From Candidatus Microthrix parvicella Bio17-1 (GTDB lineage: Bacteria > Actinomycetota > Acidimicrobiia > Acidimicrobiales > Microtrichaceae), in assembly GCF_000299415.1 (NCBI RefSeq), contig NZ_AMPG01000001.1:1612001-1676000 (forward strand): a stretch of DNA of 64,000 nucleotides, read 5' to 3'. The notes under the pieces are model-generated. The model did not search any database, had not been told where the DNA came from, and saw only the letters and a list, made by a program, of their open reading frames with translations. The stretch's first letter is position 1. Every line of letters begins with the position of its first letter. Below, piece by piece: positions 5,993 through 36,197 of this stretch. The translations under genes and the position numbers were made by a program.

Positions 5993-6018
5993 TGTGGCGT
6001 CTTCTCGACACCTTCGAG

Positions 6019-6107
6019 CGGAGAGGGTGGGATTTGAACCCACGGAAGGGTTGCCCCTTCACCTCCTTAGCAGGGAGGCCCGATCGACCGGACTCTGGCA
6101 CCTCTCC
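6019..6107 (-). tRNA. tRNA-Ser(GCT)
   Basis: Class II tRNA on the minus strand: acceptor GGAGAGG/CCTCTCC, long variable arm, T-loop TTCAAAT and anticodon loop CTGCTAA (anticodon GCT). The CCA end is not encoded. It decodes AGC/AGU and is followed by a strong intrinsic terminator. Confidence 0.95.
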
Positions 6108-16602: not shown

Positions 16603-17829
16603 ATGAAAGTGTTCGTGGGCGATGACTGGGCCGAAGCCCATCACGACGTCCATCTGATGGGCGAGACCGGCGAGAAGCTGGCTGCGAAACGGTTGCCTGA
16701 GGGGCTCGATGGGATCGCGGGTCTTCATGCGTTGATCGCCGAACACACCACCGATCCGACGGAGGTGATCGTGGGGATCGAGACCGAGCGGGGCTTGTGG
16801 GTCCAAGCGCTGATCGCCGCCGAGTATCAGGTGTACGCGATCAACCCGTTGTCGGTCTCGCGTTACAGGGACCGCCACAACGTCGCCGGCGCGAAGTCAG
16901 ACCCTGGCGACGCGAAACTGTTGGCTGATCTGGTGCGCACCGATCGGCACAACCATCGGCCTGTCGCCGGTGACACCGACCAGGCCGACGGGCTGAAAGT
17001 CCTCGCACGTGCCCACCAGAATCTGATCTGGGACCGGACCCGTCACACCAACCGGCTCCGCAACGACCTCCGCGAGTTCTTCCCCGCCGCACTGTTGGCG
17101 TTCGAGAGCCTTGCCGACCGGGACACGATCGCGGTGTTGACTAAAGCTCCGCACCCCGATCAGGCCCGACGGTTGTCGATCGCCCAGATCCGTTCGGCGC
17201 TCCGAAAAGGCGGACGTCAACGGAACCTCGACCGGCGGGCCTCCGAGATCCAACAGGCGTTGCGGACCCCTCAACTCGACGCACCGCCAGCAGTGACGAC
17301 AGCGTTCGCTGCGACCACCAAAGCGCTGGTCGAGGTCATCGCCGGGCTCAACACCAGCATTGCTGAACTCGAGACCGAGCTGGCCGCCCATTTTGATGAA
17401 CACCCGGACGCCGACATCTACCTCTCCCTGCCAGGACTCGGTGTTGTGCTCGGCGCCCGGGTGCTCGCAGAGTTCGGGGACGACCCCGACCGCTACGACA
17501 ACGCCAAGTCTCGCAGGAACTACGCGGGCACGTCACCGCTCACCATCGCCTCAGGCAAGAAACACGCCGTGCTCGCCCGCCATGTCCGCAACCGGCGTCT
17601 CTACGACGCCATCGACCAATGGGCGTTCTGCGCGATCACAGCGAGCCCCGGCTGCCGAGAGTTCTACGACCAACACCGTGCTGCCGGTGACCTCCACCAC
17701 CAAGCACTCAGAGCGCTCGGGAACCGGCTCGTCGGCTACCTCCACGGATGCCTTCGAACCCGCACCCACTACGACGAACACACCGCCTGGGCACACCGTC
17801 AACCAGCACAAACACAGATTGCTGCTTGA
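16603..17829 (+). CDS. IS110-family transposase
   Basis: 408 aa, full length and intact. The N-terminal DEDD RuvC-like domain has FVGDDWAEAHHDV, GIETERG and KSDPGDAKLLADLVRTD. The C-terminal Transposase_20 domain has LPGLGVVLGARVLAEFGD and NYAGTSPLTIASGK. The family moves without conventional inverted repeats or target duplications, so the element ends cannot be fixed here. The ATG has GGAGG 8 nt upstream. The noncoding stretch 16375-16602 before it is presumably IS left end. Confidence 0.92.
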   Translation: MKVFVGDDWAEAHHDVHLMGETGEKLAAKRLPEGLDGIAGLHALIAEHTTDPTEVIVGIETERGLWVQALIAAEYQVYAINPLSVSRYRDRHNVAGAKSDPGDAKLLADLVRTDRHNHRPVAGDTDQADGLKVLARAHQNLIWDRTRHTNRLRNDLREFFPAALLAFESLADRDTIAVLTKAPHPDQARRLSIAQIRSALRKGGRQRNLDRRASEIQQALRTPQLDAPPAVTTAFAATTKALVEVIAGLNTSIAELETELAAHFDEHPDADIYLSLPGLGVVLGARVLAEFGDDPDRYDNAKSRRNYAGTSPLTIASGKKHAVLARHVRNRRLYDAIDQWAFCAITASPGCREFYDQHRAAGDLHHQALRALGNRLVGYLHGCLRTRTHYDEHTAWAHRQPAQTQIAA

Positions 17830-21515: not shown

Positions 21516-21573
21516 TGGCGGAGGGAGGGGGATTCGAACCCCCGGAGGCTTGCACCTCAACGGTTTTCAAGAC
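21516..21573 (-). repeat. Attachment-site copy 2 (58 bp of tRNA-Ser 3' half)
   Basis: Identical over 58 bp to 27333-27390, that is from the encoded CCA through the anticodon stem of tRNA-Ser(TGA). It lacks the tRNA 5' half. Unlike copy 1 it shares no sequence beyond the CCA. Its perfect identity suggests a more recent integration event than the outer copy. Confidence 0.85.
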
Positions 21574-22037
21574 GCTTGATCAGCCCTTCTGTACCCCCGG
21601 AAACCCCTAGAAACCGCGGCGGCCTAGTAGTTCCTTAGGACTTCATAGCCCCATTGAGAGTTCCAATCATGGCCATTTTCATGGCCAAACTGTCCCGCTG
21701 GTTAGACGGCGCAATACCGCTGCTATGGCTAGCGCACGCGGGACGGCCGGACGTGCGCATCGCCGCTGGTGCCAAGCTCTCGGGCCGGGGCTGAACCCAC
21801 CCCAGCGTCACCCACGAACGTGGCGCTCAACAGGTGAGAGGTTGCGTTGTCGGAGAAGTAGGGACTGCAGCCGATGCTGTTCCCGCGTTTCGGGGAGTAC
21901 ATCGGTGTCGGCATCGCCGTCGTCCCGACGAAGCAGGCTGGTCGTTACAGCGAGCCAACCCGAGCAAGGTAGGGCTGGCCCGGCTGTCGCAGGTGGCAAA
22001 GGGAGCCGGTAACCGCAATGATTGGTGACGGACAGGG
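21574..22037. other. Gene-free stretch with a short direct repeat
   Basis: No coding sequence I can support. TCATGGCCA occurs twice with a 3-bp spacer at about 21668-21688, immediately inside attachment copy 2. It may be an arm-type site of a second integrase, or incidental. Confidence 0.45.
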
Positions 22038-27300: not shown

Positions 27301-27388
27301 GGCTGCTTCCTAGTCGCCCGTATGGATGTAGATGGCGGAGGGAGGGGGATTCGAACCCCCGGAGGCTTGCACCTCAACGGTTTTCAAG
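27301..27388 (-). repeat. Attachment-site copy 3 (proximal, at the intact tRNA)
   Basis: Direct repeat of 19163-19250 (three mismatches), and from 27333 to 27390 identical to 21516-21573. It comprises the 3' half of tRNA-Ser(TGA) plus 32 bp downstream of it. Confidence 0.85.
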
Positions 27389-27420
27389 ACCGTCGCAATC
27401 GTCCGCTCTGCCATCCCTCC
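27333..27420 (-). tRNA. tRNA-Ser(TGA)
   Basis: Intact class II tRNA on the minus strand: acceptor GGAGGGA paired with TCCCTCC, long variable arm, T-loop TTCGAAT, anticodon loop CTTGAAA (anticodon TGA) and encoded CCA. It decodes UCA (and UCG/UCU by wobble or modification). It is the integration target of the adjacent element, which restores the tRNA 3' half. Confidence 0.95.
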
Positions 27421-35055: not shown

Positions 35056-35994
<939 letters not shown>

Positions 35995-36019: not shown

Positions 36020-36115
36020 GGAGGTGTCTGGGTACCTGGTGGGCTCCCCCGCCTTCAAAGCGGGTGGGACGGGCGATCCCCGTCCGGCGGGTTCGATTCC
36101 CGTCCACCTCCGCCA
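36020..36115 (+). tRNA. selC: tRNA-Sec (selenocysteine, anticodon TCA)
   Basis: 96 nt including an encoded GCCA end. Acceptor GGAGGTG/CACCTCC, an elongated D stem, anticodon loop CTTCAAA (anticodon TCA), a long variable arm (GGGACGGGCG...CCGTCC) and T-loop TTCGATT. The anticodon reads UGA, and the extended arms and length are those of SelC rather than a suppressor or tRNA-Ser. It implies selA/selB/selD and selenoproteins elsewhere in the genome; none are in this window. Confidence 0.92.
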
Positions 36116-36127
36116 ATCGCACTGACC

Positions 36128-36167
36128 ATCGGGCCCGGCCACCAAGGCCGGGCCCGATGCGCGTTTT
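36128..36167 (+). terminator. Intrinsic terminator of selC
   Basis: Perfect 13-bp stem (36128-36140 with 36146-36158), 5-nt loop, then GCGCG and TTTT. It begins 12 bp past the tRNA-Sec CCA. Confidence 0.8.
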
Positions 36168-36197
36168 GGGTTGGGCGCGTCCTGGATACGGGTGCGC

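Follow-up and report, generated by a model that had tools for sequence, protein, structure and literature searches.

A selenocysteine tRNA gene of Candidatus Microthrix parvicella Bio17-1 and the UGA-decoding system it very probably serves

The stretch of DNA analysed here, hereafter the window, is 64,000 nt long (G000:C1:1612001-1676000, where G stands for genome, C for contig and L for locus, and G000 is the window's own genome, of 4,202,850 bases in 13 contigs and 95% complete). A tRNA gene with a UCA anticodon within it raises the question of whether UGA is read as selenocysteine (Sec) in this bacterium, and if so by which machinery and in which genes. The reading favoured here, at a probability of roughly 97%, is that the gene is selC of a working bacterial Sec-decoding system used by at least five genes. 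This reading builds on what is seen directly: the tRNA gene and its companion genes, TGA codons lying in frame at the active sites of their families, hairpins downstream of these codons, and the joint occurrence of selC and selA across genomes. The locus is laid out as follows (window positions).

35056 to 35994, plus strand: sigma-70 factor gene (Pfam Sigma70 r1.2, r2, r3 and r4), ending 25 nt upstream of selC
36020 to 36115, plus strand: selC, the tRNA-Sec gene, identified by ARAGORN and Rfam RF01852 and as the sole genome match over cut-off
36127 to 36159, plus strand: GC-rich hairpin of 14 bp, a possible terminator (fold z -3.51), with TTTT at 36164-36167

The initial annotation took a 96-nt tRNA with UCA, a long extra arm and an encoded CCA for selC, and both programs agree: ARAGORN, run on the window, called tRNA-SeC(tca) at 36020-36115 (plus strand, 96 nt), and the Rfam tRNA-Sec model RF01852 matched 36020-36111 with 67.8 bits (gathering score 47, E 1.1e-11). 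With 150 of 1023 first-look candidates scored, this is the only RF01852 match above cut-off in its own genome; six further listed matches lie between 30.8 and 45.2 bits, and three of these fall on tRNA-Ser genes in the window. The anticodon occupies tRNA positions 36-38 (36055-36057), and GCCA is encoded at 36112-36115, with G as the discriminator. In the minimum free energy (MFE) fold the tRNA forms a cloverleaf whose variable stem has 7 bp and whose 6-bp D-stem (pairs 11-14/24-27 and 16-17/22-23) closes a 4-nt loop (18-21) and leaves A15 unpaired; the energy of the fold is unremarkable for GC-rich DNA (z -1.60; 17 of 200 shuffles equally stable). The marks of a tRNA-Sec, i.e., the curated covariance score, UCA, a long variable arm with a stem, G73 and the D-stem, are all present.

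The strong terminator claimed along with the tRNA held up in part: the 14-bp hairpin is stable (the region 36116-36175 folds with z -3.51, no shuffle being as stable), but only TTTT follows it and the consensus scan called no intrinsic terminator 3' of selC. A promoter scan gave no match. The sigma-70 gene is a conserved neighbour of selC that lies outside the selenium system; of 30 order loci compared, 20 have a homologue (73-95% identity) at most 0.9 kb from selC, in either relative orientation. Elsewhere in the window, ARAGORN placed four tRNA-Ser genes, all on the minus strand, in a span of 28 kb (128-217, 6018-6107, 21516-21598 and 27333-27420). The calls at 128-217 and 21516-21598 lie below any Rfam gathering score, the former matches the tRNA-Sec model at 41.8 bits, and the latter, 83 nt long, may be a false positive. 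Rfam also matched RF02464 (Ms_AS-4, an actinobacterial sRNA) at 17427-17508 on the minus strand with 94.9 bits.

The initial annotation staked its reading on the presence of selA, selB and selD in the genome. All three are there above their cut-offs.

C4:23719-24906: selA, profile score 394.5 bits (cut-off 267.9)
From C4:24989, adjoining selA: selB, 262.6 bits (cut-off 242.25)
C3:23101-24048: selD, 345.6 bits (cut-off 125), with one in-frame TGA

Scored as whole genes they reach 395.2, 278.9 and 351.8 bits, respectively, and SelB carries the third winged-helix domain (Pfam SelB-wing_3, 46.3 bits), so that selA, selB, selC and selD, each over a curated cut-off, occur together in one genome. Further matches to the SelB model on C9 and C6, in 400-aa frames, fall below cut-off and are presumably EF-Tu. 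The selenium genes are spread over four contigs, with selC and a UGSC-family gene on C1 (1 Mb apart), selAB on C4, selD, a ResA-like gene and a glutathione peroxidase gene on C3, and fdhA on C7; there is therefore no single operon to support their linkage.

Five genes of the genome each hold one in-frame TGA at a position where the family has Sec or Cys, and each TGA is followed by a SECIS-like hairpin.

C3:23131: TGA of selD, in GAG[U]ACK; hairpin loop GTA, 33 nt after the TGA
C7:76819: TGA of fdhA (formate dehydrogenase alpha), in NQARI[U]HSATVPGLG; hairpin loop GGTCT, 18 nt after the TGA in the fold, or GTC, 19 nt after it, by the rule given below
C1:634740: TGA of the UGSC-family protein gene, in AD[U]GSC; hairpin loop GTG, 19 nt after the TGA
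C3:36515: TGA of the ResA/TlpA-like UGC protein gene, in FASW[U]GC; hairpin loop GGT, 21 nt after the TGA
C3:477108: TGA of the glutathione peroxidase (GPX) gene, in NVASY[U]GLTGQY; hairpin loop GGTC, 21 nt after the TGA

All five codons are stops under table 11, and in all five genes the coding signal persists past them. Read through its TGA, FdhA passes both NF041513 and TIGR01553. The UGSC protein belongs to its family by score (NF041046, 148.1 bits; cut-off 125) and by its DUGSC motif, and the peroxidase scores 119.8 bits against PF00255 (cut-off 27) and has solved glutathione peroxidases among its relatives. The fifth protein scores 172.6 bits against its nearest model, NF041054 (WAxxUGC), under the cut-off of 300; it is consequently named ResA-like and kept out of that family. 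Internal TGA codons are confined to single members of the families concerned, being found in 1 of 1 own-genome match to TIGR00476, 1 of 4 to PF00384, 1 of 1 to NF041046 and 1 of 15 to PF00578, and in 0 of 6 to PF02627. A molybdenum enzyme at C4:5185-6471 was also considered as a selenoprotein and rejected, as its frame is free of stops and its closest model is the NasC nitrate reductase, under that model's cut-off. The expectation that selC implies a selenoproteome is matched by these genes together with selA, selB and selD, and the in-frame TGA and SECIS element that had been suggested for formate dehydrogenase and selenophosphate synthetase were found in both, the SECIS element in the form of a SECIS-like hairpin.

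In the SECIS elements of E. coli a GU in the loop is important, and each of the five hairpins has a short loop with GU within its first three bases. A rule that asked for 6 or more pairs, a loop with GU among its first three bases and a distance of 16-37 nt picked out all 4 of the genes known by then, 38 of the window's 1713 TGA triplets and none of 33 TGA codons that end an ORF; as the rule was drawn up after the genes had been seen, this background rate is a guide only. Combined with continued coding signal and applied to 918,260 bases (22% of the genome; 9,663 open TGA sites), the rule gave seven sites: the four known genes, the peroxidase gene, which was new and had the top score, and two weak sites lacking a recognised motif. 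The control with reversed downstream DNA gave five sites, all lacking such a motif, of which one coincides with one of the two weak real sites, so the number of hits does not discriminate by itself, whereas motifs and scores do. An earlier run over 274,844 bases, with overlapping loci counted, had returned nine rows, made up of the four known genes (some repeated) and one weak motif-less site. A scan for coding signal plus TGA ranked fdhA, outside the window, first; its four candidates within the window were rejected because by eye they look like normal ends of genes, after which a new start occurs, and once a hairpin was also demanded no selenoprotein gene candidate was left in the window. 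With 22% of the genome scanned openly and chosen families searched besides, selenoproteins beyond the five are likely.

The Sec-site codon was compared across relatives for selD and fdhA. A SelD search of genome contigs gave 76 loci, of which 70 were covered at the Sec site and 6 were not; the codon in these 70 other loci is TGA in 39, TGC in 19 and TGT in 12, and no other codon occurs. The closest named relatives, judged by SelD, include MAGs of Acidimicrobiaceae, Acidimicrobiales and Acidimicrobiia, and this one protein would place the genome, probably, among acidimicrobial actinobacteria. In the selD hairpin, 78% of the pair cells are standard in the 39 distinct TGA rows (own included) compared with 46% in the 30 distinct rows with a cysteine codon, where the coding constraint is the same. 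A further hairpin at fixed positions, lying between the UGA of selD and its SECIS, seemed possible from the gene's own fold and was dropped, with 46% of cells kept in TGA rows and 44% in cysteine rows. For fdhA, 30 loci (own included) out of 36 listed matches were compared; 29 of them carry TGA at this site and 1 carries TGT. selC and selA occur together in 22 of the 29 TGA genomes, just one of the two genes is present in 6 and neither in 1, and in the TGT genome neither was found. The TGA genome with neither, which counts against the favoured reading, is G080, where the fdhA with TGA (L167, G080:C107) lies in a 97%-complete assembly.

Across 198 genomes of the order, with presence set at E <= 1e-10 for tRNA-Sec and E <= 1e-40 for selA, tRNA-Sec was found in 114 and selA in 116 (113 over cut-off). 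Both genes occur in 107 genomes, selC only in 7, selA only in 9 and neither in 75; the 16 discordant genomes may reflect assembly gaps. The tRNA-Sec cut-off itself is exceeded in 134 of the 198 genomes, but best matches of 47-51 bits were kept out of the count because they are shorter and possibly tRNA-Ser. In the window's own family, selC is present in 2 of the 7 genomes searched (E <= 1e-10) and selA in the same 2, which fits the earlier remark that Sec use is patchy in Actinobacteria. Two loci of the order stand apart: L042 (G091:C125:2208-2303) is a divergent second tRNA-Sec of a genome with another strong match at G091:C66:13136-13227, and L293 (G183:C45:14327-14408) is an 82-nt copy lacking half of the D-arm, in a genome with selA, its shortened arm being due to either a deletion or an assembly error.

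Two other accounts of these observations have to be weighed. The tRNA gene could be a relic, or a long-arm UGA-suppressor tRNA-Ser, with TGA acting as a plain stop or being read through; this would be in keeping with RF01852 also matching six places at 31-45 bits, three of which are the window's tRNA-Ser, and with the mispairing of the textbook eighth acceptor pair in selC. Set against it are the 22 bits that separate selC from the next RF01852 match, the 6-bp D-stem with its 4-nt loop in the MFE fold, the presence of selA, selB and selD, the five TGA genes with hairpins at known Sec sites, and the occurrence of the tRNA in 114 of 198 genomes of the order, all of which make a relic or suppressor highly improbable. 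Still less probable is that pseudogenes or assembly errors account for the five TGA genes. Each gene is indeed interrupted in table 11, and codons of relatives were compared for two of the five, selD and fdhA; yet in every case the TGA sits at the Sec/Cys motif of the family, with coding signal continuing beyond it, and the relatives of selD and fdhA carry a TGA or a cysteine codon there and nothing else.

For the Sec-decoding system preferred here, the biochemical steps and the insertion of Sec itself would follow what is established for SelA, SelB, SelC and SelD. The tRNA would be serylated by SerRS, SelA would convert the seryl-tRNA to Sec-tRNA with selenophosphate from SelD, and SelB would bring the Sec-tRNA to those UGA codons that have a hairpin downstream within the coding sequence. 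Predicted users number at least five, i.e., SelD itself, formate dehydrogenase alpha, the UGSC protein, glutathione peroxidase and the ResA-like UGC protein.

The tRNA departs from the textbook at two bases of its acceptor/T stack.

36027, plus strand: U8, the 5' side of the eighth acceptor pair, which faces C85 (36104) as a mispair and is unpaired in the MFE fold
36086, plus strand: G67, the base that links the variable arm to the T-stem, which pairs with C85 in the MFE fold

The MFE fold has 7 acceptor pairs and, through G67-C85, a 6-bp T-stem, giving 13 bp as 7+6 and not 8+5. The stack was compared in 181 tRNA-Sec sequences (own included), 170 of them parsed and 11 unparsed: 71 from the order, i.e., 70 among the 115 listed matches of at least 55 bits plus one weak match, and 110 from elsewhere in the phylum, among at least 141 matches there. 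Sequences beyond 60 loci returned by searches were hand-picked from the lists of matches and, the sequences being related, the counts are of non-independent events. In the 67 parsed order sequences, U.C stands at 8-85 in 64, G67 with C85 in 66 and G.U at 68-84 in 66; the exceptions at 8-85 are L027 (U-A), L291 (G-C; from G019, of the window's own family) and L293, which the parser misplaced and whose letters are U.C. All 67 order sequences have G at position 67, as do 97 of the 103 parsed from the rest of the phylum, and it is mainly C85 that varies; with G67 near-invariant, covariation gives no evidence for the G67-C85 pair. The 5' strand linking position 8 to the D-loop has a length of 9 in 65 of 67 order sequences compared with a commonest length of 8 in the phylum (58 of 103), the extra base being consistent with the unpaired base 15.

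Outside the order, 93 sequences have a G discriminator, the 10 phylum sequences that do not having been left out. The 8-85 pair is non-standard in 67 of these and standard in 26, and 67-85 is standard in 47 of the 67. Neither pair is standard in 20 (20/93 with a G discriminator, 20/103 parsed), which weakens the idea of a stack that is always 13 bp and indicates that the 7+6 form is not universal. U.C or A.C stands at 8-85 in 64 of 67 order sequences and 46 of the other 93. In ten phylum sequences (L227, L229, L244, L248, L250, L255, L260, L264, L268 and L270) the parser puts C at the discriminator; judged by eye, they resemble a published type with a 7-residue acceptor strand.

According to the available text of a review citing Rudinger 1996 (PMC9976931), in E. 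coli C7-G66, G49.U65 and C50-G64 are read by SelB and reject EF-Tu. Equated by position with 8-85, 68-84 and 69-83, a mapping made for this report, the full triple occurs in 0 of 160 actinobacterial tRNA-Sec sequences. It is tentatively suggested, at somewhat less than even odds, that a widespread actinobacterial form of tRNA-Sec has lost the eighth acceptor pair and given C85 to G67 in a 7+6 stack, and that the mispair together with G49.U65 and C50-G64 may serve as the EF-Tu-rejecting and SelB signal in place of the E. coli triple. The mispaired eighth position in most order sequences examined makes it testable which pairs separate SelB from EF-Tu outside E. coli. More immediately, genes of this lineage are to be read with UGA as a possible Sec codon, since a plain gene caller would split the peroxidase, the thiol-redox protein and the formate dehydrogenase in two, and the tally of selC and selA over 198 genomes makes gain and loss of the trait traceable.

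In comparison with known systems, the tRNA is like bacterial tRNA-Sec (RF01852) in its UCA, long variable arm, G discriminator, 6-bp D-stem with 4-nt loop and 13 possible stack levels, and in its company of selA, selB and selD; unlike the textbook form, its eighth acceptor pair is U.C, its T-stem can take on a G-C pair instead (7+6), and A15 of the D-stem is unpaired in the MFE fold. Bacterial tRNA-Sec is given as 8/5 with a minor 8/4 form in the accessible part of PMC7609411, and 12-bp (7/5) tRNA-Sec of Rubrobacter, Clostridiales and others is described in that of PMC5330540, exceptions by which the 8/5 split is not defining. The present tRNA shares seven canonical acceptor pairs with the 7/5 type as presented there, but its discriminator is separated from the 5-bp T-stem by eight residues where that type has seven, the eighth being present and mispaired; the same portion of PMC5330540 describes the 12-bp stack, and the form with a U.C mispair and 7+6 stack was not found in it. 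By title, the open-licence literature gave no paper on a selenocysteine or selenoprotein trait of acidimicrobial bacteria, nor on EF-Tu antideterminant pairs in actinobacterial tRNA-Sec. As far as the available text of a 2026 catalogue of selenoproteomes goes (PMC13188914), SelD, FdhA, UGSC, GPX-like and UGC-containing TlpA-like families are all listed, so every family of the present set is covered and none is new in kind. The Sec-decoding system is ordinary in kind, and the shape of its tRNA is the sole part that specialists might not expect.
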